Source: Streptomyces sp. B1I3 (GTDB taxonomy: Bacteria; Actinomycetota; Actinomycetes; Streptomycetales; Streptomycetaceae). Taken from it: a DNA stretch of 64,000 nt. The first letter of the stretch is position 1. Every line of letters starts with the position of its first letter. A program made the translations under genes and the position numbers. Below, one piece after another: positions 19,897-36,924 of the stretch. The notes beneath the pieces were generated by a model. It made no database searches. It was not told the DNA's origin and saw nothing but the letters and a program-made list of their open reading frames with translations. The stretch is taken from positions 1,054,001-1,118,000 of the forward strand of contig NZ_JAUSYD010000001.1 in the NCBI RefSeq assembly GCF_030816615.1, read 5' to 3'.

Positions 19897-20772
19897 TCAC
19901 AGCCACTCGTTGATGGCAGCGACAAGCACAGTAGCCTCGTAGCGGACCGCGAGCTTGTCGTATCGCGTGGCAACAGCGCGGTGCCTCTTGAGCCGGTTGA
20001 TCCCGCACTCGACCGCGTGACGTTCGCGGTAGTCGACCGGGTCGAAGTGCGGCGGCCGGCCGCCGCGAGAGCCGAGCTTCTGGCGATTGCGCGCCTGGTC
20101 GGCCTTGTCTGGGATGGTGCAGCGGATTCCGCGGCGGCGCAGGTAGGCACGGTTCCTGCGGGAGGCGTACGCCTTGTCCGCCCGCACCCGGTCGGGGCGG
20201 ACGCGTGGCCGGCCCGGCCCGAGGCGGGGCACGCGGACCTTCTCCAGCACCGGTTCGAACTGCGGCGAGTCCCCGCGCTGCCCTGCCGTGATCACGATCG
20301 ACATGGGCTTCTGGCCCTGTTCGACGGCCAGGTGCAGCTTGGTGGTGAACCCGCCGCGCGAGCGTCCCAGCCCGTGATCACGTGGCTCGGTGAAGACACC
20401 GCCCGGTGGTTCCTTTTGCAGATCGCCCTGCTTGCGGGCCCCGGCCGCATGCTGATGGGCACGGCATACCGTGGAATCGACGCTCAAGTCCCACGTGATC
20501 GCCCCCTTCGCGTCGGCCAGGGCCTGGAGCCGGCTGAGGATCCGCTGCCAGGTGCCGTCCCGCTGCCACCGGCGGAACAGGTCGTAGACCCGGCCCCACG
20601 GCCCGTACTCGACGGGCACGTCCCGCCACGGCACACCGGTCCGGACCCGGAACCGTATGCCGTCGATCAGCAGCCGCCGGGGCCAGACGGGCGGTCGCCC
20701 CGACTTCTTCCCCTTCGGTAACAACGGCTCCAGCACCGCCCACTGCTCGTCCGTGAGATTTCCCCGACCCAT
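19897..20772 (-). CDS. IS5-family DDE transposase
   Basis: A 291-aa transposase in a single frame. The N-terminal domain starts [15 protein letters not shown] and has the typical [23 protein letters not shown] residues are seen in [16 protein letters not shown] (first Asp), [13 protein letters not shown] (second Asp) and [19 protein letters not shown] (Glu). No frameshift or internal stop was seen, so it looks active. The start ATG is 46 bp inside the right end. Confidence 0.95.
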
Positions 20773-23426: not shown

Positions 23427-24323
23427 TCACCCGACGTACCGGCGCGCGCTCGATCTCCGCTGTTCCCGCTCGAGCAGCATCAGACGGGCTTCGAGTTCGT
23501 GCGGTACGGGCCGGCGCTGCCTGAGCACCCAGGGCAGGCCCGCCACCGCGCGGGCGAACGCCCGCACCGACGCCCCGTCCCGGGGCACCGTGCGCAGCAG
23601 GTAGGCGGTGCGCCGGACGGCCGGCCCCCACGGGCGCCGCAGCCAGGTGTACCAGAGCGTGTTCCTCAGCCCGGCGATCCGCCGCTCCCTGCTGTCCCGG
23701 ACCGTGGAGGCCGCGTGGTGGATCAGCAGGTCGGGCACATAGCTGAGCCACCACCCCTGCCGGAGGAGGTCGGTGGCGAGCAGTTCCTCCTCGCCGCCCA
23801 GCCACAGCCCCGGGTGGAAGCCGCCGGCCGTACGGAAGGCGTCGGTCCGCATCACGGTCGCGGCTGCGAGGAACGACCCGAGGGCGGGGCCGGGGAGCCA
23901 GTCGGGCCCGGTGAGGGGGGAATCCCGCAGCTCGGCGACGACGGGGTCCTCCTCGCCGGACGGCTCGACGACGATACGGGCCGTCACGGCAGCCAGCCTC
24001 GGGCGCGTGTCGAGGAGGTCGGCGGCGTGGCGCAGCGAGCCGGGTTCCCACCAGGTGTCGTCGTCGCAGAACGCCACGTAGGGGGTGCCCACCTGACGTA
24101 CCGCGAGGTTACGGCCGACAGCGCCCAGGTTGCGGCCCGGCCTCAGCAGGGTCATATCGGGGAACAGCCGTGCGACGGCATCCGCTGTGCCGTCGTGCGA
24201 GTCGTTGTCCGTCACGATGACGTGGGGCCTTTCCGGGAGCGCCCGCAGCAGCCCCAGGGTGTGCAGGAGTTCGGGGCGACGGTTGCGGGTGATCACCACC
24301 ACGGTCGTACGGGTGTCTCTCAT
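23427..24323 (-). CDS. Family 2 glycosyltransferase
   Basis: GT-A enzyme of 298 aa, last gene of the heptose-glycan run. It opens TTVVVITRNRRPELLHTL; the nucleotide-sugar site has VTDNDSHDGT and a DxD-type motif CDDDTWW near 92-98; GGFHPGLWLGGEEELLATD follows. No membrane helix is evident, so it should be cytoplasmic or peripheral. The start overlaps the stop of the preceding gene (ATGA). It is a clear paralogue of the gene immediately upstream. Donor and acceptor are unknown; ADP-heptose is one possibility. Confidence 0.9.
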   Translation of the reverse strand: MRDTRTTVVVITRNRRPELLHTLGLLRALPERPHVIVTDNDSHDGTADAVARLFPDMTLLRPGRNLGAVGRNLAVRQVGTPYVAFCDDDTWWEPGSLRHAADLLDTRPRLAAVTARIVVEPSGEEDPVVAELRDSPLTGPDWLPGPALGSFLAAATVMRTDAFRTAGGFHPGLWLGGEEELLATDLLRQGWWLSYVPDLLIHHAASTVRDSRERRIAGLRNTLWYTWLRRPWGPAVRRTAYLLRTVPRDGASVRAFARAVAGLPWVLRQRRPVPHELEARLMLLEREQRRSSARRYVG

Positions 24324-25249
24324 CGGCCCTTCTCCTCCCGGTCGTGTTCCGTGCGCGCCTGGCGTTCGAGAAGCCGGACCGCGTGTTCGACCCTGGCCGG
24401 CAGCCGGCGCCGCTGCCGCAGGGCGGCGGGCAGTCTGACCGCGGCCCCGCGCAGTGCCGTCGCCGCTCCCGGGTCTCCCCGCACCGCGGCGGCGGCGAGT
24501 CCCGCGGTGTGCCGCACGGCCACGTGCGCGGGCCGGCGCAGCCAGTCGGTGAGCAGGGCGTTGCGGCGCAGGAGGGCGGAGCGGCCGGGCCGCTCGCCGG
24601 GGTCGGGGTGGTGGTGCGCGACGACGGTGGGCTCGTACGCCACGCCCCACCCGGCCGCGGTGAGGTCGTAGGCCAGCAGCGTCTCCTCCGCGCCGAAGAA
24701 GAGCAGCGGGTGGTAGCCGCCGGTCTCGAGGTGGGCACGGCGGCGGACGACGCACGCGCAGCCGAGGAAGCCCAGGACGGGGCGGCCGGGCAGGTCGGGT
24801 TCCGGTGGCAGCGGCGAGCCGGCCAGCAGGGCGTTGACCGGGTCCTCGTCCTCCTCCGGACCGACCAGGCTGCGGGCCGCGAGCAGCCCGAGGCGGGGGT
24901 GCGCGTCGAGGAGGTCGGCCGCGCGCCCGAGGGCGCCGGGTCCCCACCAGGAGTCGTCGTCGCTGAAGGCGACGTAGGGCGTCGACGCGTGACGCGCCGC
25001 CAGGTTCCGCCCGAGGGCCCCGGTGTTGTGCCCGGGGCGCAGTACCTCGGCGCCGATGGGGTGGGCGCGCAGGGCCTCGGTCGCCACCGGGTCCGTGCCG
25101 TTGTCCACGACGACGACCGGCGGGCGCTCGGGCAGTGCGGCGAGCTGGTCCAGGGTGTGCAGGGCGCTGCGCGGCCGGCCCCGGGTGATCATCGCGACGG
25201 TCGTGCGGCCGTCGGCCGGGAGGTGGTGCGGTCCGGTGCCGTCAGACAC
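24320..25249 (-). CDS. Family 2 glycosyltransferase
   Basis: GT-A enzyme of 309 aa. It has TVAMITRGRPRSALHTLDQL at the start, VVVDNGTD, then RNLAARHASTPYVAFSDDDSWW with the DxD-type metal site, and GGYHPLLFFGAEETLLAYD. It is a tandem paralogue of the next gene, suggesting duplication and two related linkages in one glycan. The GTG at 25249 overlaps the upstream GT9 stop by 8 bp. Confidence 0.9.
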   Translation of the reverse strand: MSDGTGPHHLPADGRTTVAMITRGRPRSALHTLDQLAALPERPPVVVVDNGTDPVATEALRAHPIGAEVLRPGHNTGALGRNLAARHASTPYVAFSDDDSWWGPGALGRAADLLDAHPRLGLLAARSLVGPEEDEDPVNALLAGSPLPPEPDLPGRPVLGFLGCACVVRRRAHLETGGYHPLLFFGAEETLLAYDLTAAGWGVAYEPTVVAHHHPDPGERPGRSALLRRNALLTDWLRRPAHVAVRHTAGLAAAAVRGDPGAATALRGAAVRLPAALRQRRRLPARVEHAVRLLERQARTEHDREEKGR

Positions 25250-26264
25250 GTCCGGACGCCTCCGTCGGTTCGTACGCGCCGTGCCGGCCGGCCGCCCCCG
25301 GCCGTGCGGACCGTTCCAGGACGGCGGCGAGCACCTCGTCGGTGCCGATGCGGAGCAGCGCGGGGTCGGGGGTACGGCCGTGCGGATCGCCGGGCGGCCC
25401 GGGGTGCCACAGGACTCCGTGGGCCGGGCCGTCCGGCGGACCCCAGAGGTGCGGGGGCACCGGGCCGAAGAGGGTCACGGACGGCGTGCCGTGGGCGACG
25501 GCCAGGTGCGCAGGTCCGGTGTCGCCGCTGAGCAGGCAGGCGGCCCGGGCGACGAGCGCGGACAGCTCATCGAACGGCAGTCCTCCGGCCAGGACGTGTT
25601 CCGGGCCGAGCCCGGCGCCGGAGGCCACCATGGCGGTCAGCGCCTCCTCCCCGGGGCCCCCGGTCAGCACGACCCGGAGGCCGGCCGCCACCAGCCGCCG
25701 GACGACGGCGGCGTACCGGCCGGCGGGCCAGCACCGGGCGGGCGCGTCGGCGCCGGGGTGCACGACGACCGCGCCGGGCGCGGGAGAGGGGCGGGTGGGC
25801 GGCGGCAACCGCACGTCGTCCGGGTCGGCGCCGATGCCGTACGCCCGCAGGAAGCGGCACCAGCGCTCCCGCTCGTGCTCGTCCCGGCGCCACCGGGGCG
25901 GGTCGGGGACGGACGGGTCCGGACGGGCGTACGACAACAGCCGGCGCGGTCGGAGTGCGGCCAGCGCTTCGTGGCTCTCGGGCCCGTTGCCGTGCAGATC
26001 GATCGCGAGGTCCGGCGGCTCCCCCGTCCAGCCCGTGAGGACGGGCACACCGCGTCCGGGCGCAGCCGCCGGGAGGACGGTGTCGACGGTGCCCGTGGCG
26101 AGCGCGGCGTCACGCAGGCCCCCCGGGATCGCGAGGACGGTCTCGTGCCCCGGGAAGGCGCGGCGTACCCCGCGCAGGGCCGGTACGCCCGCGAGCAGGT
26201 CGCCCAGGCCCAGGGCGCGCAGGACGAGGACACGGGGGCGCGGCGGGGTGTGCGGTCGGGCCAT
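25242..26264 (-). CDS. Family 9 glycosyltransferase (heptosyltransferase-like)
   Basis: A 340-aa GT-B enzyme of the ADP-heptose:LPS heptosyltransferase family. It has VLVLRALGLGDLLAGVPALRG at the N-terminus, VVVHPGADAPARCWP in the middle and LSGDTGPAHLAVAHGTPSV at the nucleotide-sugar site. The ATG at 26264 has GGAG at 9 nt; an ATG 9 bp earlier is too close to that site. In Gram-negatives the family extends LPS core; here there is no LPS, but the neighbouring HldE, GmhA and GmhB would supply an ADP-heptose donor. Confidence 0.9.
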   Translation of the reverse strand: MARPHTPPRPRVLVLRALGLGDLLAGVPALRGVRRAFPGHETVLAIPGGLRDAALATGTVDTVLPAAAPGRGVPVLTGWTGEPPDLAIDLHGNGPESHEALAALRPRRLLSYARPDPSVPDPPRWRRDEHERERWCRFLRAYGIGADPDDVRLPPPTRPSPAPGAVVVHPGADAPARCWPAGRYAAVVRRLVAAGLRVVLTGGPGEEALTAMVASGAGLGPEHVLAGGLPFDELSALVARAACLLSGDTGPAHLAVAHGTPSVTLFGPVPPHLWGPPDGPAHGVLWHPGPPGDPHGRTPDPALLRIGTDEVLAAVLERSARPGAAGRHGAYEPTEASGRV

Positions 26265-26269
26265 GGCTG

Positions 26270-27763
26270 TCATCTCCGGGCGCTGCGGGGCCGGGTGGCG
26301 GGGCGGGGAGCCGGGCCGCGGGCCGCCCGTTCGGCGAGCGCGGTGGTCGAGCGGCCGTCGAGGTAGGGCAGGAGGACGACCTGCCCGCCCCAGCTCCGCA
26401 CCAGCCTCGCCTCGGGGAGCTCCGTCAGGGCGTAGTCGCCGCCCTTGGCCCAGATGTGCGGACGCAGCTCGCCCAGCAGCCGTTCGGGGGTGTCCTCCTC
26501 GAACACGGCGACCGCGTCGACGCATTCGAGCGCCAGGAGCACCCTGACACGGTCGGTGACCGGGACGAGGGGGCGCGTCCCGCCCTTGCGCCGCCGCACC
26601 GAGGCGTCGGAGTTGACGCAGACGATGAGGCAGTCACCGGTACGCCGGGCCGCCTGGAGCAGGGCGACATGGCCCGCGTGCAGCAGGTCGAAGCAGCCGC
26701 CCGCCGCGACGACGGTGCCTCCCTCCTCGCGTACCCGGACGGCCAGCCGTGCCGCGTCCGGTGCGCAGGGGTCCGTCTCCACGTCGTCCCCGGCCGTGTC
26801 CTGCGGTGCGGTGGTGACGGGTCCGACGGCCAGGGCACGGGCTCCGCCGTCCGCCACGTACTGGGTGGCGGCGCGCACCGCGCCCTGGACGGCCGTCTCC
26901 GGGAGCGCGTCGTCGGCCAGCAGCCCGGCCGCGGTCACCGCGAACCGGTCGCCGGCGCCGCACGCGTCGCCGTCCGCCGTCCAGGGGGCGGGGACCAGCA
27001 GTGGCTCCTCGCCGTGGGACAGCAGCGCCCCGCGGTCTCCCAGGGTGACGGCGACGGAGGTGACACCCCAGGCCGCGATGAGCCGGCGGGCGTCCGCGGC
27101 GGAGCGGTGCAGCTCGGCCTGCGGGCCCTGCGGCGGCGGTTCACACGCTCCGTCGTGACCCGCACGGGTGGGTGCCCGGGCCGCGTCCCGGGTGGCGAAC
27201 CCACGGGCCTCCGCCGCCGAGGGGGTGGCGAGCCGGACTCCCTTCACCGGCGGCCCGCCTCTCGGGTGGGGGTCCCAGACGACGGGCACCCTGGCGGCGG
27301 CCCGGGTGAGCGCGTCACGGAGGACGTCGGCGGCGCCGCGGCCGTAGTCGGCGACGAGAACGGCCCTGGCCCCCTCGACGGCGGCGCGCGCCTGGTCGGT
27401 CGCCGAGGCCGCGCGGCCGTCGCCGTCGTCCAGTCTGAGCAGGGGCACGCCCCGGGCCATGATCCGCGTCTTGCAGGGGAGTTCGCCCGTGAGCGGAAGC
27501 TCGATCAGCCGGACGCGGCCCTGCAGCAGCCGCCGCAGCGTCCGGCTGGCCTCGTCGTCGCCCAGCGCCGTGACGAGGGTGACCTCACGGCCGTCCGCCG
27601 CCCCGAGGCACGCGGCGAGTGCCGCGCCACCGGGCCGGGTGGTGCGGCGTGCGCCGTTCACCACCGGTACGGGGGCGTCGGGAGCCAGCCGGTCGGCGTG
27701 GCCGGACAGGTCGTGGTCGAGCAGGGCGTCCCCGACGACGAGAAGGGGCGTGGGGCCGTTCAT
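26270..27763 (-). CDS. hldE: Bifunctional heptose-7-P kinase / heptose-1-P adenylyltransferase
   Basis: RfaE/HldE-type fusion of 497 aa. The N-terminal PfkB-type kinase (about 1-320) has VVGDALLDHDL and the anion-hole DACGAGDRF. The C-terminal nucleotidyltransferase (about 350-480) has GGCFDLLHAGHVALL with HxGH, and DGRSTTALAER. It phosphorylates glycero-manno-heptose 7-phosphate at C1 and later joins AMP to heptose 1-phosphate; the 7-phosphatase GmhB encoded nearby acts between these steps. The kinase part carries an insertion of about 25 polar residues around 195-225. Start ATGA overlaps the gmhA stop. Confidence 0.93.
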   Translation of the reverse strand: MNGPTPLLVVGDALLDHDLSGHADRLAPDAPVPVVNGARRTTRPGGAALAACLGAADGREVTLVTALGDDEASRTLRRLLQGRVRLIELPLTGELPCKTRIMARGVPLLRLDDGDGRAASATDQARAAVEGARAVLVADYGRGAADVLRDALTRAAARVPVVWDPHPRGGPPVKGVRLATPSAAEARGFATRDAARAPTRAGHDGACEPPPQGPQAELHRSAADARRLIAAWGVTSVAVTLGDRGALLSHGEEPLLVPAPWTADGDACGAGDRFAVTAAGLLADDALPETAVQGAVRAATQYVADGGARALAVGPVTTAPQDTAGDDVETDPCAPDAARLAVRVREEGGTVVAAGGCFDLLHAGHVALLQAARRTGDCLIVCVNSDASVRRRKGGTRPLVPVTDRVRVLLALECVDAVAVFEEDTPERLLGELRPHIWAKGGDYALTELPEARLVRSWGGQVVLLPYLDGRSTTALAERAARGPAPRPATRPRSARR

Positions 27764-28392
27764 ACGATGCCCTCCCCGACCGGTGCCGGGGCCGGGGCGG
27801 GCCGGTGGCCGGCCCCGGTGGCGTGGTCGTCGACGGCCTGGTCGAACGCCTCGCAGATCATGTGCACCGCCACCAGGTGGAGTTCCTGGACCGTGGCGGA
27901 GACCGGTGCGTCGACGCACAGGGCTTCGTCGCAGGCCGCTTCGAGGGGGTTGGGGGCGGGCCCTGTGAGGGCCCAGACCGTCATGCCGATGCGGTGCGCC
28001 TGGGTCGCCGCCGCCAGCAGGTTGGCGCTCGCGCCGCTGGTCGACAGCAGCATGAGGACGTCCCCCGCCCTGCCGTGGGCGCAGGTCTGACGGGCGAACA
28101 CCTCCTGGACGCCGTAGTCGTTGGCGATGGCGGTCGTGGACGAGGTGTCGGCGTGCAGGGCGAGCGCGGAGAACGGCGGCCGGTCCTCGCGGTAGCGGCC
28201 CACCAGCTCGGCGGTCAGGTGCTGGGCCTGGGCGGCGCTGCCGCCGTTGCCGGCGACGAGGAGCCTGGCCCCGCCGCCGAGGCGCCGTGCGAGCTCGGCG
28301 CCCCAGCGGTGGACGACGGGACACGACTCACGGAACGCGGCGAGGGCGTCCATCAGATCGTCGCAGTGCTGGCCATCAGGGGTCACGTTCAT
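27760..28392 (-). CDS. gmhA: Sedoheptulose-7-phosphate isomerase (GmhA-like, SIS domain)
   Basis: SIS-domain protein of 210 aa. The phosphosugar loop LLVAGNGGSAAQAQHLTAEL is near 44-63, and the second site is LLSTSGASANLLAA. The family length is about 190-200; the extra C-terminal tail is Ala/Pro-rich. It should turn sedoheptulose 7-phosphate into D-glycero-D-manno-heptose 7-phosphate, the first committed step of ADP-heptose synthesis. Overlaps at both ends place it in the coupled run. Confidence 0.9.
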   Translation of the reverse strand: MNVTPDGQHCDDLMDALAAFRESCPVVHRWGAELARRLGGGARLLVAGNGGSAAQAQHLTAELVGRYREDRPPFSALALHADTSSTTAIANDYGVQEVFARQTCAHGRAGDVLMLLSTSGASANLLAAATQAHRIGMTVWALTGPAPNPLEAACDEALCVDAPVSATVQELHLVAVHMICEAFDQAVDDHATGAGHRPAPAPAPVGEGIV

Positions 28393-29627
28393 CGGACTGC
28401 TCCCGAGAGTGAGGGGGCGGCTCGTACGGCGCTGTAGACGCGGGCGACACCGTCGGTGACCCGGTCCCAGGTGTAGTGGGTGAGGACTCGTTCGCGGCCG
28501 GCGGCACCGAGACGTTCCAGCCGTTCAGGGTCGTCGATCAGACCTCTGATGACGCCCGCGAGAGCGTGGCTGTCGTCGTCGGGCGGGACGAGGGCGCCCG
28601 TGACGCCGTCGACCACGGTGTCGAGGTGACCGCCGACCGCCGTGGCCAGGACCGGGGTGCGGCAGGCCATGGCCTCGATGGGCACGATGCCGAACGGTTC
28701 GTAGTCGGGGAGGGACAGCACCAGGTCCGCACCGGACATCAGGCGGGGCATCTGGGTGTGGGGCACCGCACCCAGCAGCGTGACGCGGTCCTGGACGCCG
28801 TACTCCTCGGCCACCTTCCGCAGGCGTTCGGCCTCCGGTTCGGCGAACAGCAGCGCGGCCTCGGGCCCGCCGGCGACGAGGAGTTCCGCGTCGGGCACCT
28901 CGGCGAGCGCCCGGACGGCACGGTCGAACCCCTTGCGCCGTACGAGCCGGCCGACGGCCAGCAGACGCCGGGGGCCGGACGCGGGGCGGCGGGCGTCCTC
29001 GATCGGCGAGAAGTGGACGGGGTCGACTCCGCACGGCACGACCGAGATCCGCTCGCGCGGCACACCCATGGCAGCCAGCTCGGCGACCTCGTCGGCGCAG
29101 GTCGCCAGGACCCGCCTGCACTCCTGCCCGATCGCCGCCTCCACGGCCAGGCGCTGGGGCGGGCTGGTGTCCTCGGCACCCTGGTGGCGCCTCTTCACCG
29201 TGCCGAGGGCGTGGTAGGTCTGGACGACCGGGACACCGAGGCCGCGGACCCCTGCGAGCGCCGCCGTACCGGACATCCAGAAGTGCGCGTGCACGACGTC
29301 CGGCGGTCCTGACCGCCAGCGGCGTGCGAGGAAGGCCCCGAACTCCGGCATGTGGGCGAGGAGTTCGTCCTTGGGCACCGGGGCGGGTGGCCCGGCGGGC
29401 ACGTGCGCGACCTGGTAGCCGCCCGGCGTGGTGACCTGCCCCGGCAGGGCCGGGTCGTCGCGGCGCGTGTAGACGGTGACCGCGTGACCGCGCCGGGCGA
29501 GGTGTTCGGCGAGTTGGGCCACGTAGACGTTCTGCCCGCCCGCGTCCGGCCCGCCGAGCTCGGCCAGGGGGCTGGCGTGCTCGGAGACCAGGGCGACGCG
29601 GACGGGGGCTGGAGTGGCGTTCCTCAT
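28389..29627 (-). CDS. Family 4 glycosyltransferase
   Basis: GT-B enzyme of 412 aa. It has LAELGGPDAGGQNVYVAQLA (Gly-rich acceptor loop), DVVHAHFWMSG, LLAVGRLVRRKGFDR, and the EX7E motif in PDYEPFGIVPIEAMACRTPV. It resembles MshA/sucrose-phosphate-synthase-like transferases that use UDP or GDP sugars. The ATG at 29627 overlaps the upstream stop. It acts in the cytoplasm on a soluble or membrane-linked acceptor; the acceptor is unknown. Confidence 0.92.
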   Translation of the reverse strand: MRNATPAPVRVALVSEHASPLAELGGPDAGGQNVYVAQLAEHLARRGHAVTVYTRRDDPALPGQVTTPGGYQVAHVPAGPPAPVPKDELLAHMPEFGAFLARRWRSGPPDVVHAHFWMSGTAALAGVRGLGVPVVQTYHALGTVKRRHQGAEDTSPPQRLAVEAAIGQECRRVLATCADEVAELAAMGVPRERISVVPCGVDPVHFSPIEDARRPASGPRRLLAVGRLVRRKGFDRAVRALAEVPDAELLVAGGPEAALLFAEPEAERLRKVAEEYGVQDRVTLLGAVPHTQMPRLMSGADLVLSLPDYEPFGIVPIEAMACRTPVLATAVGGHLDTVVDGVTGALVPPDDDSHALAGVIRGLIDDPERLERLGAAGRERVLTHYTWDRVTDGVARVYSAVRAAPSLSGAVR

Positions 29628-30586
29628 CGCGTGACCTCTTTCATCAGGTGTTCCCAGTCGTCCAGGAAGCGCTGCACCCCGTAGCGGGCGAGTGCGGCGG
29701 CCCTGGCCCCCTCCCCCACGCGCCTGGCGTGACCGTGGTCGGCGAGGAAGGCGCGGACGGCCTCCTCCAGGACGTCGGGGCGGTTGGAGACGACTCCGGC
29801 GCCGTCCGGCACCGCTTCGCGGACCTCCGTGGTGTCCAGCGCCACGACCGGCATGCCGAGGAACATCGCCTCCAGGAGCGACAGGCCGAGCGATGTCCAG
29901 CGCACGGGGTGGAGGTAGAGCCTGCGGCGGGCCATCGCCGGATGGAGTTCGCTCTGCGGCAGGTCCCAGGTGCGGCAGCGGTCGGCAGGCAGACCGAGAT
30001 GTGCGGCGAGTCCCTCGGTGCGCATGCCGAAGACGTCCAGCGGCGCGGCGCGGGAGAAGGCGGGCAGCAGGTCGGTCCCGGTGGTGCGGCCACGCCGTAC
30101 CGGCTCATTCACCACCACGGCGGCCCTCGGCTCCTCGCCGGTCCACAGTCCGCCCGGGTCGATGATGCCGTGCTCGATGACCGTGGCCGGGGCCCGGCCG
30201 GTGTCCCACATCAGCCGGTTGAAGTGCGTGACGTGGACGACGGGGATGTCGTCCCGTCCGGCCAGCGGGTGCCGGGTGTCCACCGCTGTTCCGTCCGGGC
30301 TGTTGTGCTCGACGTACACGGCCGGGACGTCCGTGCCCGGCCGCCGGCCCGTCCAGGCGTGGGCCAGTCCGATCTCGTGGGGCCGCTGGAGGACCATCAG
30401 GTCGATGTCGCTCTCCCGGAGAGCGCCGGGACTCACCTCCCGCACCCGGTCAGGCCACTGCCAGGTGCGGGCCCGCCCGAGACCGTCGGGTCCGCGGTCC
30501 GGTGTGACGGGCACGAGGCAGGTGTGCGGTCCCTGGACGAACGACGTGATCCAGGAACCGTGGACGTGCCAGATGAGGATGTTCAT
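29624..30586 (-). CDS. GT-B glycosyltransferase (family 1/4-like)
   Basis: A 320-aa protein with a divergent N-terminal half: MNILIWHVHGSWITSFVQG, then DLMVLQRPHEI and VYVEHNSPDG. The C-terminal Rossmann half is recognisable: LYLHPVRWTSLGLSLLEAMF carries the EX7E-like donor-site segment, followed by GMPVVALDTTEVREAV. Start ATGA overlaps the GT9 stop. The exact family is uncertain, but the glycosyltransferase fold is well supported by context and C-terminus. Confidence 0.8.
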   Translation of the reverse strand: MNILIWHVHGSWITSFVQGPHTCLVPVTPDRGPDGLGRARTWQWPDRVREVSPGALRESDIDLMVLQRPHEIGLAHAWTGRRPGTDVPAVYVEHNSPDGTAVDTRHPLAGRDDIPVVHVTHFNRLMWDTGRAPATVIEHGIIDPGGLWTGEEPRAAVVVNEPVRRGRTTGTDLLPAFSRAAPLDVFGMRTEGLAAHLGLPADRCRTWDLPQSELHPAMARRRLYLHPVRWTSLGLSLLEAMFLGMPVVALDTTEVREAVPDGAGVVSNRPDVLEEAVRAFLADHGHARRVGEGARAAALARYGVQRFLDDWEHLMKEVTR

Positions 30587-31590
30587 GCGGTCACCTCGAT
30601 GAGCTCGCGGACGGCCCGCACCACGCGCTGGGGCGTGACCTCGTCCAGGCACGGATGTCCGGGGACGGGGCAGTGCCGGGCGCGGCTGCCGGCACACTTC
30701 GCGGACTGGTCGCCGAGCAGGACGGACGGCACCCCGAAGGGCCCCCAGCGTTCCGCGGGCACCACCGGGGCGAACAGGGAGACGACGGGTGTGCCCACCG
30801 CGGCGGCCAGGTGGGCGGGGCCGGTGTTGCCGCTGACGAGGGCGTCGGCGCCGCGCAGGACGCCGGCCAGGGTGCGGGGTTCCGTCCGGCCGCCGAGGTC
30901 CAGTCCGGCCGTGCCGCTCACCCTCCGGGTCAGCGCCGTCTCGTCCGGTCCGCCGGTGACCACCACGCGGTGTCCGGCATCGGCGAGCCGCTGCACTGTC
31001 TCGGCGCAGCGCTCCGGACTCCAGGCACGCGCCGGGGCACTGGCTCCCGGATGGACGACGACGTAGGGGCCGTTGCCGGTGAGGGCGGCGGTGTCGGGAG
31101 CGGGCAGCACCCGGAGCCTGCCGTCGTCCCCCCGGGCCGGCGCGAAGCCCATGGCGACGGCGGTGTCCAGCGCGGCCTCCGCCTCGTGGCGGCCGGGGAG
31201 CCTCCGGTGCCTGACGTCGAGCAGGGTCCCCGGGTGGTCGGCGCTGTCCGCCCCGATCCGGCCCACTCCGGCCATCCTGAGCAGCAGCGCGGTGGGCAGG
31301 GGGCTCTGGTGGAAGGAGGTCAGGACGAGCCCGGTGTCGTACGCGCCGTCCCTCAGCCGCCGGGTCACCGTCTCGATTCCGGCCTCCTCGACCGTCGGCG
31401 GCCGTACCCCCTCCCAGGGGGCCTCCCAGACGAGTACGTCGTCGACGCCCGGCAGCAGCCGGGCGGCGGGTTCGCCCCGCGGCCCGCACAGCAGGGTGAC
31501 GTGGGTGGCGTTCGCGGCGACCGCGCGGACGGCGGGTCCCGCGAGGAGTACGTCGCCGAAGCTGTCCAGCCGGGTGACCAGAACCCTCAT
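30583..31590 (-). CDS. Family 9 glycosyltransferase (heptosyltransferase-like)
   Basis: A 335-aa GT9 protein. It opens MRVLVTRLDSFGDVLLAGPA and has VVVHPGASAPARAW and LVSGNTGPAHLAAAVGTPVV. The C-terminus contains several cysteines (SAKCAGSRARHCPVPGHPC), as in many GT9 members. Second heptosyltransferase-like enzyme of the cluster. Start ATG at 31590 overlaps the gmhB stop. Confidence 0.92.
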   Translation of the reverse strand: MRVLVTRLDSFGDVLLAGPAVRAVAANATHVTLLCGPRGEPAARLLPGVDDVLVWEAPWEGVRPPTVEEAGIETVTRRLRDGAYDTGLVLTSFHQSPLPTALLLRMAGVGRIGADSADHPGTLLDVRHRRLPGRHEAEAALDTAVAMGFAPARGDDGRLRVLPAPDTAALTGNGPYVVVHPGASAPARAWSPERCAETVQRLADAGHRVVVTGGPDETALTRRVSGTAGLDLGGRTEPRTLAGVLRGADALVSGNTGPAHLAAAVGTPVVSLFAPVVPAERWGPFGVPSVLLGDQSAKCAGSRARHCPVPGHPCLDEVTPQRVVRAVRELIEVTA

Positions 31591-32141
31591 GCGCGGGCCT
31601 CCTGACGGTCGAGGACCATGCGCACGGCGGTCAGCACGTCCGGTGCGGTCCACCGTTCGACCGCCACCTCGGCGGGCAGGGTCACCGCGTTGGGGACCAG
31701 GACGCCTCGGGCCCCCGCCGCCCGTGCCGCGAGGACGTCGGCCCGGATGTCACCGATCACCACGCACTCCGCCGGCGGTACGCCCAGCCTGCGGGCGGCC
31801 TCCAGGACGAGCCCCGGCCGCGGTTTGCGGCAGGTGCAGCCGGCGTCGGGGCTGTGCGGGCAGAACACCCAGGTTCCGAGGGTGCCGAGCAGGGCGTCGG
31901 CCCGTGCGTTGACCCGCAGCACCTCGTCCTCGCGGAGCAGTCCCCGGCCGATGCCCGACTGGTTGCTGACCACTCCCGTGGGGATGCCCGCGGAACGCAG
32001 GAGGTCCACCGCTTCGCGCGCCCCCGGCAGGAGCCGGACCAGCTCGGGGTCGCCGTTGTAGGGGACGTCCTCGACGAGGGTGCCGTCGCGGTCGAAGAGG
32101 ACCGCGGACACCCGGCCGTACGGTGGCGCGCCGGGGGTCAC
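31587..32141 (-). CDS. gmhB: Heptose 1,7-bisphosphate 7-phosphatase (GmhB-like, HAD-IIIA)
   Basis: HAD phosphatase of 184 aa. It has FDRDGTLVEDVPYN (motif I, nucleophile Asp), VSNQSGIGRGLL (motif II), the zinc-binding loop FCPHSPDAGCTCRKPRPG, and VIGDIRADVLAARAAGA (motif IV). The zinc loop is typical of GmhB. It removes the C7 phosphate from glycero-manno-heptose 1,7-bisphosphate so that HldE can adenylylate C1. The GTG at 32141 overlaps the upstream GT2 stop (GTGA). Confidence 0.92.
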   Translation of the reverse strand: MTPGAPPYGRVSAVLFDRDGTLVEDVPYNGDPELVRLLPGAREAVDLLRSAGIPTGVVSNQSGIGRGLLREDEVLRVNARADALLGTLGTWVFCPHSPDAGCTCRKPRPGLVLEAARRLGVPPAECVVIGDIRADVLAARAAGARGVLVPNAVTLPAEVAVERWTAPDVLTAVRMVLDRQEARA

Positions 32142-33130
32142 GGGGCGCCTCCCGGTGACCGGACGTTACGGTGCCTGACCAGGCCCGTGAGCCAGTGGCG
32201 GACCGCGAGCGGCGGAATGGCGGCGCTGGTCACGGTCATCGTGAGGATCTCGTGCCGGGTCCGGGGCCCGGGGATGATGCGCGCGGCGGCGAACTCGGCC
32301 GTGCCCAGGGCCCACAGCGTGCCGGCGACGGCCGCCGCGCGGTGCCGGCCGGCCGCCGCGCAGACGGTGGCCAGGCAGGCCAGCCCGGTGACGGCGAGGT
32401 GGGCGGGGAGCCGGCCCCGGGGGGCGTGGGCCCGTATCCACCAGTCGGCGCCGTGCAGACGGTTCATCAGGACGTCGTCGGCGTTGCCGCGCTGCGCCCG
32501 CAGGGACACCCAGCGGTCCGCAGGGCGGACGGGGTGACGGGTGACACGGCCGCCCGTGCGGAGGGTCCAGCCGGCGTCCATCATGCGCAGTGCGAGGTCG
32601 GCGTCCTCCCGGAAGGCGCGGCGGAAGCGTTCGTCGAAGCCGCCCACCTCCTTGAGCGCGACCGCGCGGTAGGCCATGTCGGCCGTGGCCCAGGCCGCCT
32701 GCTCCAGGCCCGCCGTCCCCCTCTCCCAGTCCGTCGGCCTGCGGTCCTCGGGGAGGGGGACCGTGAGCCGCCCCTGGACACCGCCGGTGCGGCCGTCCGC
32801 CGCCACGAGGTCGTCGGCGAGCCGGTCGGCCCAGTCGGGGAGGACCTGGACGTCGTCGTCGAGGAAGACCACCCAGGGCGCGGTGACGGCCCGCAGGCCG
32901 GCGTTGCGGGCGGCGGCCGGGCCCCGGCCGCCGGTGGCCAGGGTGCGGACGCGGTCGCAGAGTTCGCCGGCCGCCTCGACGGGCAGGATGTCCTGCGGCG
33001 CGGGGCGGTCGTCGACGACGACCACCTCGGCCGGCCTGGGTCCGGAGGCGGACGCCAGCGCCCGCAGGCAGTCGGTGAGGCAGGCCCGGCCGATGGTGGG
33101 GACGACCACCGCGTACTCCGGGGCGTTCAT
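32138..33130 (-). CDS. Family 2 glycosyltransferase with C-terminal membrane segments
   Basis: A 330-aa GT-A protein. It has YAVVVPTIGRACLTDCLRAL, VVVDDRPAP, the DxD motif in VVFLDDDVQVLPDW, and FREDADLALRMM (ED motif). The last 80 residues contain one or two hydrophobic stretches (AVTGLACLATVCAAAG and later AIPPLAVRHWL), so it may sit at the membrane. Its size fits rhamnosyl- or mycolyl-arabinogalactan-like transferases, but the sugar is unknown. It overlaps both neighbours. Confidence 0.9.
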   Translation of the reverse strand: MNAPEYAVVVPTIGRACLTDCLRALASASGPRPAEVVVVDDRPAPQDILPVEAAGELCDRVRTLATGGRGPAAARNAGLRAVTAPWVVFLDDDVQVLPDWADRLADDLVAADGRTGGVQGRLTVPLPEDRRPTDWERGTAGLEQAAWATADMAYRAVALKEVGGFDERFRRAFREDADLALRMMDAGWTLRTGGRVTRHPVRPADRWVSLRAQRGNADDVLMNRLHGADWWIRAHAPRGRLPAHLAVTGLACLATVCAAAGRHRAAAVAGTLWALGTAEFAAARIIPGPRTRHEILTMTVTSAAIPPLAVRHWLTGLVRHRNVRSPGGAP

Positions 33131-34761
33131 GCGTACGCCTTCGCTCGCCGTACCGCGAACGGTCCGAGGGCCAGGAGGTCGACGGGCGCCGAGCCGAAGC
33201 ACTCCAGCGCGTCCCGGGGGTCGTCGACCATCGGCCGGCCTGCCGTGTTCAGGCTGGTGTTCACGACGACGGGCAGCCCGGTGCGCCGTTCGAAGGCGCC
33301 GAGCATGCGGGCCACGAGAGGTTCGGAGACGGGGTCCACCGTCTGGATCCGGGCGGTGCCGTCGACGTGGACGACAGCCGGGATGCGGGCGCGCCATTCC
33401 TCGGCGACCTCGTGGACGAAGAGCATGTACGGGCTGGGAATCGGGCCGTCGAAGAGTTCCGCCGCCCGCTCGGCGAGCACCATGGGTGCGACCGGGCGGA
33501 ACTCCTCGCGCCCCTTGACGGCGTTCAGCCGCTCCAGGTTCTCGGCCCGACCGGGGTGCGCGAGCAGCGAGCGGTGGCCGAGGGCGCGGGGGCCGAATTC
33601 GGACCGCCCCTGGAACCAGGCCACGACACCGTCGCGGCTCAGTTCCTCGGCGACGGTCTCGGCGATGTCGTCGGGCTCCTCGTACGGCACGGCCGCCCGT
33701 TCCAGCCAGCCGCGCAGTTCCTCGTCGCTCCAGCCCCGCCCGAGTGCCGCGGTCGGCATGGCCGCCACGGGCTCCTTCTCGCCGGCGACGTGCAGGGCGG
33801 CGCCGAGTGCCGTCCCCGCGTCGCCGGCGGCCGGCTGCACCCAGATCTGCCGGAACGGGCTCTCCCGGTACAGGCGGGTGTTGGCCACGCAGTTGAGAGC
33901 CACTCCGCCGGCGAGTGTGAGCACGTCCTCGCCCGTGCGGCCGTGCAGCCACCGCGCCAGGTCGAGCATGACGTCCTCCAGGCACTCCTGGGCACTCGCG
34001 GCCACGTCGGCGTGCTCCTGGGACCAGGGGGCTCCGGGCTCCCTCCCCGGTACGAGCGAGGCCCAGGGGACCGGGCGGGCCCGGAAGCCGCCGTCCCCGT
34101 CCGCGTGCACGAACTCCCGCAGCCGGTCCTTGAAGCGGGGCTTGCCGTAGGAGGCGAGCGCCATGACCTTGAACTCGTCGCTGCTGCGCAGGAACCCCAG
34201 GTGCTGGGTGAGGTCCTCGTAGAACAGTCCTACGGAGTCCGGAAGTTCCTGGGACGCCAGGACGGTCAGCTCCCGGTTCACATAGCGGCCCGCGAGGTGT
34301 GAACCGCATTCGCCCCGGCCGTCGAGCACGAGGACCGCGCAGTCGGGGTGCGGTGACGCCTGTCCGGCCGAGGCCGCGTGCGCCACGTGGTGTGCCACGA
34401 AGCGGACCTTGCCGGGGTCGAGCCCGGGCAGCGCCTCGGCGAGGAACTCCGGGGCGCGCCGCGCGTACTCCTGGCGGAGGTGGTCCCACGGGTCGTGGAG
34501 CCCCATCTGCTCGGCCGGACGGGAGAGGTGCGCGTCGTAGGAGTAGGCGACCGCGTCGAGGTCGGCCGGGGTCAGCCCGGCCTGTTCCAGGCACCAGCGG
34601 GCGCTGAGTTCGGGCAGTTCCCAGGCGGAGAACGGGAGCGGGCGCTTGCCGTGCTTACGCCGGCTGAAGCGCTCCTCCTCCGCCGCGGCGACGATCCTGC
34701 CGTCCACGACGAGGGCGGCGGCGGGGTCGTGGAAGAGTGCGTTGATACCGAGGACGCGCAT
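33127..34761 (-). CDS. NodU/CmcH-family O-carbamoyltransferase
   Basis: Carbamoyltransferase of 544 aa. The N-terminal Kae1-like domain has NALFHDPAAALVVDGRIVAA and the metal-binding FVAHHVAHAAS. The C-terminal YrdC-like domain has WFQGRSEFGPRALGHRSLL and VVNTSLNTAGRPMVDDP. Such enzymes transfer a carbamoyl group from carbamoyl phosphate, via carbamoyl-AMP, to a sugar hydroxyl (NodU, TobZ) or an antibiotic. Placed among sugar genes, it should decorate the glycan or its heptose. ATG at 34761; 11 bp after the epimerase stop. Confidence 0.93.
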   Translation of the reverse strand: MRVLGINALFHDPAAALVVDGRIVAAAEEERFSRRKHGKRPLPFSAWELPELSARWCLEQAGLTPADLDAVAYSYDAHLSRPAEQMGLHDPWDHLRQEYARRAPEFLAEALPGLDPGKVRFVAHHVAHAASAGQASPHPDCAVLVLDGRGECGSHLAGRYVNRELTVLASQELPDSVGLFYEDLTQHLGFLRSSDEFKVMALASYGKPRFKDRLREFVHADGDGGFRARPVPWASLVPGREPGAPWSQEHADVAASAQECLEDVMLDLARWLHGRTGEDVLTLAGGVALNCVANTRLYRESPFRQIWVQPAAGDAGTALGAALHVAGEKEPVAAMPTAALGRGWSDEELRGWLERAAVPYEEPDDIAETVAEELSRDGVVAWFQGRSEFGPRALGHRSLLAHPGRAENLERLNAVKGREEFRPVAPMVLAERAAELFDGPIPSPYMLFVHEVAEEWRARIPAVVHVDGTARIQTVDPVSEPLVARMLGAFERRTGLPVVVNTSLNTAGRPMVDDPRDALECFGSAPVDLLALGPFAVRRAKAYA

Positions 34762-34772
34762 GGGGGCCTCCG

Positions 34773-35768
34773 TCAGAGCCGCTGGGCCGTCGCGGCGGTT
34801 TCGGGCAGGGACGAGAAGTAGGCGATGGTGCGTTTGATGCCTTCCTCGCTGCTCACCCGGGGCTCCCAGCCGAGCAGTTCGCGCGCCAGGGTGGTGTCGG
34901 GCCTGCGCCGTTCGGGGTCGTCGACGGGGCGCTCGACGAAGGTGAGTGTGGAGGCGGAGCCGGTCATGGCGATCACACGACGGGCGATGTCGGCGACCGT
35001 GACCTCCTCGCCTCCGCCGATGTTGACCGGGCGGACCGCGTGGCTGGCGGCCACCGCGAGGACGCCGTCGATCGTGTCGTCCACGTAGCAGAGCGAGCGC
35101 GTCTGGCTTCCGTCCCCGGCCACGGTCACCGGCTTCCCGGCCAGTGCCTGGGAGATGAAGGTCGGGACCGCCCGTCCGTCGTCGGCCCGCATCCGGGGGC
35201 CGTACGTGTTGAACATCCGTACGATGCCGGCGTCCAGCCCCTTCGCGCCGACGTGCGCCGTGACCAGGGCCTCGGCGAACCGTTTGGACTCGTCGTACAC
35301 GCTGCGCGGGCCGACGGGGTTGACGTTGCCCCAGTAGTCCTCACGCTGCGGGTGGACGAGCGGGTCGCCGTAGACCTCGGACGTCGAGGCGAGGAGGAAG
35401 CGCGCGCCGTCGCGGTGCGCGATCGCCAGCGCGTTGCGGGTGCCGAGGCTGCCGGCGTCCATGGTCTCCAGCGGGTGGCTCATGTAGTGCACGGGCGAGG
35501 CTGGGCACGCGAAGTGCAGGACCAGGTCGTAGGGGCCGGTCAGGTCGGCGGCCACGGTGTCCGAGGACACGTCGCACTGCACGAAGCGGAATCCGGGCCG
35601 GCCGGTCAGGTGGGCGATGTTGCGGCTGGATCCCGAGATCAGGTTGTCCGCGCAGTCGACTTCGACTCCCGAATCCAGCAGCCGCTCGCACAGGTGTGAG
35701 CCGAGGAAACCGGCGCCCCCGGTCACAGCGGCGCGGCGCCATGGGGGCGGTGTCGTCATGGATGTCAT
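34773..35768 (-). CDS. UXS-like NAD-dependent sugar-nucleotide epimerase/decarboxylase
   Basis: Extended SDR of 331 aa and first gene of the run. It has TGGAGFLGSHLCERLL, FACPASPVHYMSHPLET (typical of UDP-glucuronate decarboxylases), STSEVYGDPLVHPQ, and GPRSVYDESKRFAEAL with YxxxK. Such enzymes make UDP-xylose from UDP-glucuronate; heptose epimerases (HldD) look different. So either a pentose donor is made, or the enzyme has been recruited to act on the heptose nucleotide. The start ATG is at 35768, with an alternative three codons later. Confidence 0.88.
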   Translation of the reverse strand: MTSMTTPPPWRRAAVTGGAGFLGSHLCERLLDSGVEVDCADNLISGSSRNIAHLTGRPGFRFVQCDVSSDTVAADLTGPYDLVLHFACPASPVHYMSHPLETMDAGSLGTRNALAIAHRDGARFLLASTSEVYGDPLVHPQREDYWGNVNPVGPRSVYDESKRFAEALVTAHVGAKGLDAGIVRMFNTYGPRMRADDGRAVPTFISQALAGKPVTVAGDGSQTRSLCYVDDTIDGVLAVAASHAVRPVNIGGGEEVTVADIARRVIAMTGSASTLTFVERPVDDPERRRPDTTLARELLGWEPRVSSEEGIKRTIAYFSSLPETAATAQRL

Positions 35769-36153
35769 AGGACGGCCTTTCGTCCGCTGCGAGAGGGCTT
35801 CCCGCCGGTCGTTCGGGGGCCGGCGGGAGCTGCCCGGTCCGGATGACCGGCTCGTTCCGGTACCGGTTCGCGCCGGGTGGTACCCGGGGCGGGTGCCTTT
35901 CCGCGCGCGGCCGCCGTGGTCCCGACGGCACGGCCAGCCGGGTAACCAGGTCAGTTGGTTTCACACATTAAATCCTGCTTCGTTAGTCGAAGTCCTGACA
36001 TTTGCGCAGGTGGACGCGCGGGCCTCGGCCCGATCGCACCCGATCGGAGGTATGGCGCGGTTGCCGGGATTCAGCGGTGCGCCCGCGCCGGTGCCGGGCG
36101 CCGCGTGCCGCCCGCCGGCCCGCCGGCGGGACCCCCGGCGGGCCCGTGTTCCT
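35769..36153. other. Leader region of the heptose-glycan run
   Basis: 385 bp without a gene, between the sigma-factor stop and the first gene of the run. It contains an AT-richer patch (about 35958-35998) unlike its surroundings, where the promoter probably lies, and a terminator hairpin at its far end. A GGGTAC on the minus strand (35880-35885) lacks a SigB-type -35. Confidence 0.5.
36117..36144 (-). terminator. Hairpin after sigma-factor gene
   Basis: GGCCCGCCGG (36117-36126) pairs with CCGGCGGGCC (36135-36144) around an 8-nt loop, starting 10 bp past the sigma-factor stop. Confidence 0.7.
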
Positions 36154-36924
36154 TCAGGCCCCCTCGCGGAGGCTGCGGCAGGCCTTGCTGATCAGGCGCG
36201 ACACGTGCATCTGGGAGATGCCCAGTTCGGCGGCGATGGCACTCTGCGTTATGCCGGCGAAGAACCGGAGGTAGAGCACGTGGCGTTCCCGCTCCGACAG
36301 CCGGCGCAGGCCCGGTTTCACCGATTCGCGGTCCACCACGAGATCGAACGCGGTGTCGATCCTGCCCAGGCTCTCGCCGAGGGACAGACCGCCGTCGCTG
36401 CCGGCGATCTCGGCGTCGGTGGAGAGGGCACTGAAGCTGTGAAGGGCCTCGCTGCCCTGGCGGACCTCCTCCTCGGTGAGGCCGGTGTGGGTGGCGATCT
36501 GCCGCTCCGTCACGGCGGAGCCGTCGCCGCCCGCGGCCAGTTCGGCATGGGCGGCCCGCACGACGTTGCGCAGGTCCTGGACGCGGCGCGGCACGTGCAC
36601 CGACCACGTGCGGTCCCTGAAGTGCCGTTTGATCTCCCCGGTGATGGTGGGGACGGCGTAGCTCGCGAACGCGTTGCCCAGGGCGGGGTCGTAGCGGTCG
36701 ACCGCGTTGACCAGTCCGACGGCCGCGACCTGCCGCAGGTCCTCCAGGGACTCACCGCGGTTGCGGAAGCGGCCGGCCAGGCGGTGGGCCATGGGGAGCC
36801 AGGCGCGGATGGTGTCGTCCCGCAGCCGGTCCCGCTCGGCGCCCTCGGGCAGTTCGGCGAGGCGCCGGAAGGCCGCTGCCGTGTCCGGATCGGCACGCCG
36901 GTCGTCGGCACACATCTGAGCCAC
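36154..36924 (-). CDS. SigB/SigF/SigG-family RNA polymerase sigma factor
   Basis: Sigma factor of 256 aa of the stress/sporulation group with regions 2, 3 and 4. Region 2 contains GLVNAVDRYDPALGNAFASY and GEIKRHFRDRTWSVHVPRRV; the C-terminal HTH is GITQSAIAAELGISQMHVSR. Streptomyces have about nine such factors, controlled by RsbW-like kinases and STAS antagonists through partner switching. No anti-sigma gene is adjacent; one RsbW-like gene and a SpoIIE-type phosphatase lie more than 30 kb away. The GTG at 36924 (GAGGAG 5 nt upstream) is preferred over the ATG three codons later. Confidence 0.95.
   Translation of the reverse strand: MAQMCADDRRADPDTAAAFRRLAELPEGAERDRLRDDTIRAWLPMAHRLAGRFRNRGESLEDLRQVAAVGLVNAVDRYDPALGNAFASYAVPTITGEIKRHFRDRTWSVHVPRRVQDLRNVVRAAHAELAAGGDGSAVTERQIATHTGLTEEEVRQGSEALHSFSALSTDAEIAGSDGGLSLGESLGRIDTAFDLVVDRESVKPGLRRLSERERHVLYLRFFAGITQSAIAAELGISQMHVSRLISKACRSLREGA

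Follow-up and report, generated by a model that had tools for sequence, protein, structure and literature searches.

The twelve-gene cwg operon of Streptomyces coelicolor is said to have been described by Hong et al. in 2002. An excerpt of PMC6767563 presents it (SCO6179-SCO6190, cwgA-L) as a putative cell-wall sugar operon that answers to wall-damaging antibiotics, a target of sigma-E, and inducible by vancomycin in a partly sigma-E-dependent manner. The excerpted text of PMC5839063 gives products for eight cwg genes, including a phosphoheptose isomerase for cwgH and a bifunctional enzyme for cwgI, and reports that all cwg genes were raised in an argR mutant. Expression of cwgA was raised by salt (PMC13011467), and a literature search with S. 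coelicolor locus tags also returned PMC3902916. In the open-licence literature searched, neither the sugar made by cwg nor its structure was reported. Heptose pathways are already known in actinomycetes, those of septacidin and hygromycin B and the tridomain nucleoside-diphosphate (NDP)-heptose synthetases appearing in excerpted sources. Here, a 64,000-nucleotide stretch of Streptomyces sp. B1I3 (the window, to which all coordinates refer) was analysed, and a run of twelve genes within it was identified, by protein similarity and gene order, as this strain's ortholog of cwg, a system already known. A preliminary description of the locus had been made from the sequence alone; the run, being a named operon, is not an unexplained novelty.

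The window operon is orthologous to cwg

Codon-position analysis and start-codon placement defined twelve consecutive minus-strand genes, from 35768..34773 (first) to 24323..23427 (last). Minus-strand codon-position composition shifted reading frame between 35768 and 23427 as expected for twelve genes. Start-codon placement gave nine 4-bp overlaps and one 8-bp overlap among the 11 junctions, the first junction being an 11-bp gap; some listed open reading frames run beyond their likely starts, such as the 506 amino acids listed for the last gene. Pfam, NCBIfam and PDB sequence searches assigned the genes, in order, to a UDP-glucuronate decarboxylase, an O-carbamoyltransferase, a GT2 glycosyltransferase, GmhB, a GT9 enzyme, two GT4 enzymes, GmhA, HldE, a second GT9 enzyme and two further GT2 enzymes. 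The co-directional layout with mostly 4-bp overlaps claimed in the preliminary description was confirmed by the codon-position and start-codon analyses, and its list of GmhA, HldE, GmhB, two GT9 enzymes, five other glycosyltransferases and a NodU-type carbamoyltransferase agreed with the Pfam and NCBIfam results.

To test orthology, the sigma-E promoter string that PMC6767563 prints for sco6179-6190 was used as a query against 392 Streptomyces genomes. The string occurred with at most two mismatches in 6 of the 392 genomes and exactly in 1 of 392. The genome with the exact string (G245, locus L067) carried all twelve genes in the same order and on the same strand, with 60-77% identity to the window proteins, and the promoter string printed for SCO6178 was readable on the opposite strand just upstream of its cwgA. 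From these promoter strings we infer that this genome is of the S. coelicolor type. In the window itself, twelve genes of these types run in one direction in the order cwgA-L, with which the eight product names in the excerpt of PMC5839063 agree. Gene identities, catalytic motifs and orthology to cwg are shown at the sequence level.

The heptose-donor enzymes

The isomerase, kinase, phosphatase and nucleotidyltransferase of the ADP-heptose pathway were all present with their motifs, including GAGD and HxGH in HldE and DxD and the CxH..CxC loop in GmhB; GmhA has Gln at a position that is Asp in solved relatives. Among heptose-specific NCBIfam models, the sole pass was the nucleotidyltransferase domain of HldE (TIGR02199, 185 bits against a cut-off of 181.5), which had one match over cut-off in the whole genome. 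The whole-protein HldE model PRK11316 matched at 3.4e-77, below its cut-off. At the sequence level, the pathway chemistry is well supported.

No TIGR02197 match over cut-off for HldD, the C-6 epimerase for L,D-heptose, was found genome-wide (best 102.6 against 274.6 bits), and the heptose would therefore probably remain D-glycero-D-manno. The first gene, cwgA, was considered as an HldD candidate and ruled out by its scores. The HldE motif in the window reads YLDGRSTT, in which Tyr replaces the F/L of (F/L)XXGXSTT and Arg occupies the fifth position (STTR5/GRSTT). This Arg is tied to CDP/UDP-heptose synthesis in PMC11461863 and in excerpts of PMC11573728. It was kept in 93 of 107 readable homologs, motif counts being made over 110 loci (52 homologous loci and 58 from genus and class searches, the window's own left out), with some organisms possibly in both sets. 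Given this Arg and the lack of HldD over cut-off, the donor is probably an NDP-D,D-heptose.

Seven distinct genomes (L042, L044, L118, L119, L126 = L151, L127 and L139 = L159) encode GmhA and HldE in a single open frame. Tridomain enzymes of this GmhA-HldE fusion type were reportedly published by Tang in 2022. Such fusions in several genomes bear on whether the GT9 and HldE-like enzymes might instead use ordinary hexoses and build a glycan without heptose, as the sub-threshold GT9, GmhA and whole-HldE models would permit and as the in vitro use of mannose 1-phosphate by E. coli and Vibrio HldE (PMC10948575, in excerpt) would allow. We consider this very improbable: beyond the fusions, the isomerase, kinase, phosphatase and nucleotidyltransferase co-occur here, the nucleotidyltransferase domain exceeds a heptose-specific cut-off, and all 15 of the hand-picked non-Streptomyces loci hold homologs of HldE, GmhB and GT9 together.

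Sugar-modifying enzymes and glycosyltransferases

CwgA matched human UDP-glucuronate decarboxylase structures in a PDB sequence search at about 1e-94, compared with 2.9e-35 for the best UDP-glucose 4-epimerase. The preliminary description had called this protein a UXS-like epimerase; the likeness to UXS held, but on the human UXS1 match the best reading of the protein is UDP-glucuronate decarboxylase (UDP-xylose synthase), which should make UDP-xylose. Its TSE and YxxxK motifs were kept in 56 of 56 rows, some loci being counted twice. A UDP-glucose/GDP-mannose dehydrogenase-family gene inside the L042 cluster is a likely source of UDP-glucuronate.

CwgB carries the Carbam_trans_N and Carbam_trans_C domains and matched the PDB carbamoyltransferases NovN, TobZ and GdmN. 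It was the sole PF16861 match in the genome, and the carbamoyltransferase C-terminal domain likewise had one match genome-wide. WapO is a putative carbamoyltransferase for core heptose of Pseudomonas lipopolysaccharide (LPS) in the excerpted PMC8005017, and by this precedent heptose would be the likeliest carbamoyl site of CwgB.

As this strain's MshA gene, cwgG was ruled out, a far better MshA being encoded elsewhere in the genome (641 against 227 bits, TIGR03449). As CwgG is an MshA paralog distinct from that protein, an inositol-type or lipid acceptor is possible. Single hydropathy peaks were present in CwgC, CwgE, CwgF and CwgJ, but the neighbouring catalase has one too; by eye, the C-terminal part of CwgC alone resembles more than one membrane-associated stretch. 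Membrane contact of the Cwg enzymes is therefore weakly indicated.

Distribution and modules

With a threshold of E<=1e-60, 34 of 101 Streptomyces genomes had an HldE homolog; a class-wide search at E<=1e-40 found one in 33 of 148 genomes, representing 20 of 81 genera. Both genome counts include the window's own. Not every match is cwg, as L118 and L119 hold GmhA-HldE only. Twelve separate genes in the same order and on the same strand were present in 28 of the 52 homologous loci, and 32 loci have all twelve if one gene may stand for both cwgK and cwgL. The 24 of 52 without twelve separate genes in this arrangement include loci cut by contig ends, loci lacking cwgK/cwgL and other types (L042, L044, L046, L049 and L056). 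The earlier suggestion that similar clusters may exist in other Streptomyces was right. Three Streptomyces cwg loci (L016, L034 and L037) had no cwgK or cwgL homolog within 21 kb, so the 3′ GT2 genes vary.

The heptose core is spread over Actinomycetia. Fifteen non-Streptomyces loci were picked by hand (13 regions from the class search plus L042 and L044), absence here meaning absence from about 20 kb. All fifteen contained homologs of GmhB, both GT9 enzymes, the MshA-like GT4 and HldE, while GmhA and the other GT4 were each present in 13. The carbamoyltransferase, UXS and first GT2 occurred together in the same 10 of 15 loci, an all-or-none pattern that suggests a heptose core plus a xylose/carbamoyl module.

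A short, highly conserved SDR gene like L152:9778-10464 directly followed HldE in all 15 of these loci. A wider count over the loci from the genus and class searches placed it next to HldE, at 60-100% identity, in 25 of 26 non-Streptomyces loci (L146 is without it, and L129 belongs to the query's own genome) and in none of 32 Streptomyces loci. Among the 52 homologous loci, a close relative of the L152 protein was found only in the two Nocardioidaceae. This SDR may modify NDP-heptose. Though less likely than not, cwg could represent one variant of a heptose-glycan system that is class-wide in Actinomycetia and independent of LPS. Its native donor would be CDP-/UDP-D,D-heptose rather than only ADP-heptose, some lineages would add xylose and O-carbamoyl to the glycan, and outside Streptomyces the SDR would further modify the heptose. 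The count of 25/26 against 0/32 lends weight to the SDR pattern across the class but adds nothing to the claims on donor and product.

The Nocardioidaceae cluster L042 also encodes, at L042:13060-14889, a 609-amino-acid protein with a Tat-like N-terminus, a PHP-like motif (by eye) and no Pfam match.

The region upstream of cwgA

The loose pattern AACN15-18CGTC was tried as a sigma-E promoter in the relatives and occurred in 8 of 43 upstream regions against about 5 expected (0.12 per region), no clear excess; the window was among the 43 and had no match. In the excerpt of PMC6767563, cwg is not among the 21 sigma-E targets conserved in the genus. The sigma-E promoter characterises the S. coelicolor copy of cwg.

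A conserved 5′ block was common to 37 of the 43 upstream regions, with CAACGTGTGAAA..ACTGG, inverted repeats and GGGAAC; the window version has TTAATGTGTGAAA and GGTTAC. The alignment leaves out L010, in which the block is broken, and L020, L035, L037, L040 and L047, in which it was not recognised. Rfam gave a chance-level match only, and RNAalifold predicted the second stem only. Across the two named stems, 88.0% of cells were paired compared with 86.1% in shuffled alignments, and both-side changes numbered 10 compared with 3.2 cells, values that related sequences can give without structure; the first stem was paired in 81% of cells. When nine sequences were folded singly, only L030 clearly exceeded its shuffles in stability (z -3.13; window z 0.39). 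The indication of RNA structure is modest.

Across 41 relatives, the window's genome included, the block model matched strongly in G000, G003, G016 and G020 and less so in G014 (2e-4) and G010 (0.004). The last two have no HldE match, so hits are not always at cwg. In a second set of 26 genomes (24 of the 33 other HldE-positive Streptomyces plus G245 and G118), 4 matched at E<=0.01 and 22 did not. There was no match at this threshold in the promoter-matched genome of S. coelicolor type, which has the sigma-E promoter. The block is clade-limited, and is an RNA leader or a DNA site.

Proposed product

Taken as a whole, the locus is the ortholog of cwg and likely makes a cell-envelope glycan or glycolipid containing heptose, xylose and carbamoyl groups. 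Its substrates, order of steps, acceptor, carbamoyl position, envelope location and product chemistry we infer as follows. Sedoheptulose 7-phosphate would be converted to NDP-heptose, and CwgA would convert UDP-glucuronate to UDP-xylose. On an acceptor that would be cytoplasmic and possibly membrane-linked, the seven glycosyltransferases (two of GT9 for heptose, two of GT4, three of GT2) would assemble a glycan containing heptose and xylose. CwgB would add an O-carbamoyl group, most likely on heptose, and the product would end in the envelope as a glycan or glycolipid. The envelope role is supported by sigma-E control and vancomycin induction in S. coelicolor. A heptose-containing carbamoylated glycan had been proposed in the preliminary description; it remains the natural reading of the gene content, and carbamoyl-heptose has the WapO precedent (PMC8005017, in excerpt), but the cluster is no novelty, being the cwg operon.

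Several observations weigh against this proposal. No sigma-E promoter (AAC, about 17 bp, CGTC-like) was matched within 420 bases upstream of cwgA in the window, and control by envelope stress may therefore not apply to this strain. In S. coelicolor, cwgG (SCO6185) ranked among the most stable transcripts (excerpt of PMC4630627), a poor fit to a role induced purely by stress. At E<=1e-60, 67 of 101 Streptomyces genomes had no HldE match, and the product is therefore not a general wall component. The GmhA, GmhB, GT9 (both) and whole-HldE heptose models fell below NCBIfam cut-offs, and in place of the usual Asp of GmhA, which we take to be a zinc ligand, 103 of 104 readable homologs carried Gln or Glu. 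Finally, the Pfam search of the twelve genes gave no match to polymerase, flippase, ABC-exporter or sugar-1-phosphate transferase families.

The lack of export or polymer genes in the run would also fit a small soluble or secreted glycoconjugate, such as a specialised metabolite of the heptose-containing glycoside kind. The structurally solved relatives of the carbamoyltransferase, TobZ, NovN and GdmN, presumably come from antibiotic pathways, heptose pathways serve septacidin and hygromycin B, the distribution is patchy, and CwgG is a paralog of MshA, whose family uses a soluble acceptor. Yet no aglycone-forming gene was matched in the run, synteny holds in 28 of 52 loci with a core common across the class, and the operon is under a cell-envelope sigma factor in S. 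coelicolor; such a product is accordingly judged unlikely.

For the envelope glycan, the gene analysis offers a testable composition: D,D-heptose, xylose and O-carbamoyl. The roles of CDP/UDP-heptose are called elusive in the excerpt of PMC11573728, and cwg may give these nucleotide sugars a function. Confirmation of the product would tie antibiotic-stress physiology to a defined glycan of the envelope in a genus that lacks LPS.

Neighbouring genes and feature coordinates

Just upstream of cwgA, a sigma-70 family gene (window 36154-36924, minus strand) adjoins an MMPL gene, with a lycopene cyclase gene beyond; we assume that it resembles the CrtS-type sigma factor of carotenoid clusters. Similar genes lie in the same place in L006 (87% identity) and L036 (57%). 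An IS4/5-family transposase gene (window 19897-20772, minus strand) lies downstream of the catalase gene.

Table 1. Positions of the cwg orthologs and associated features, with supporting matches. Coordinates are those of the window unless a locus is named.
Feature	Position	Strand	Evidence
cwgA ortholog, UDP-glucuronate decarboxylase / UDP-xylose synthase (SDR)	34773..35768	-	human UXS1 structures ~1e-94; TSE and YxxxK
cwgB ortholog, O-carbamoyltransferase of NodU/TobZ/NovN type	33127..34761	-	PF16861 2.1e-65, PF02543 1.7e-48; PDB relatives
cwgC ortholog, GT2 glycosyltransferase with hydrophobic C-terminal part	32138..33130	-	PF00535 3.1e-16; hydropathy peak at residues 241-259
cwgD ortholog, GmhB-type heptose-bisphosphate phosphatase (HAD-IIIA)	31587..32141	-	PRK08942 3.1e-31, below cut-off; GmhB structure 4pnh 8e-22
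cwgE ortholog, GT9 heptosyltransferase-like	30583..31590	-	PF01075 1.1e-23
cwgF ortholog, GT4 glycosyltransferase	29624..30586	-	PF00534 1.2e-12
cwgG ortholog, GT4 glycosyltransferase, MshA paralog	28389..29627	-	PF00534 1.3e-39; TIGR03449 (MshA) 227 bits, below cut-off
cwgH ortholog, GmhA sedoheptulose-7-phosphate isomerase	27760..28392	-	TIGR00441 7.5e-43, below cut-off; GmhA structure 1tk9 2.6e-35
cwgI ortholog, HldE, heptose-7-phosphate kinase and heptose-1-phosphate nucleotidyltransferase	26270..27763	-	PRK11316 3.4e-77; TIGR02199; GAGD, HxGH, GRSTT
cwgJ ortholog, GT9 heptosyltransferase-like	25242..26273	-	PF01075 2.3e-22
cwgK ortholog, GT2 glycosyltransferase	24320..25249	-	PF00535 8.9e-13
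cwgL ortholog, GT2 glycosyltransferase	23427..24323	-	PF00535 4.6e-17
Conserved 5′ block upstream of cwgA, two inverted-repeat pairs in relatives	35893..35973	-	37-sequence alignment A1; model R1 match 2.7e-13 (window itself in model)
GmhA-HldE fusion (tridomain type)	L042:9314-11443		one of the seven fused genomes

Comparison with known systems

With the Gram-negative LPS core pathway (GmhA/HldE/GmhB/HldD and GT9) and WapO, the window locus shares heptose-donor enzymes, GT9 transferases and a carbamoyltransferase. It differs in that its genome has no HldD over cut-off, that UXS and GT4/GT2 enzymes are added, and that lipid A/Kdo families were unmatched among the twelve genes, the rest of the genome not having been searched for them. 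To our knowledge, Streptomyces has neither a lipid A/Kdo acceptor nor an outer membrane.

The septacidin and hygromycin B pathways and the tridomain NDP-heptose synthetases have in common with it, as far as the excerpted sources go, the conversion of sedoheptulose 7-phosphate to NDP-heptose in actinomycetes. Among the twelve genes, none was matched as a nucleoside or aminoglycoside gene. The tridomain enzymes are paralleled by the GmhA-HldE fusions in relatives of the locus, whereas GmhA and HldE are separate in the window.

The closest system is the cwg operon of S. coelicolor, with which the locus shares twelve genes, their order and strand, and matching annotated products. The two differ in that the published sigma-E promoter was not found upstream of cwgA in the window, where another conserved block lies instead, and the window genes are 60-77% identical to those of the promoter-matched genome.

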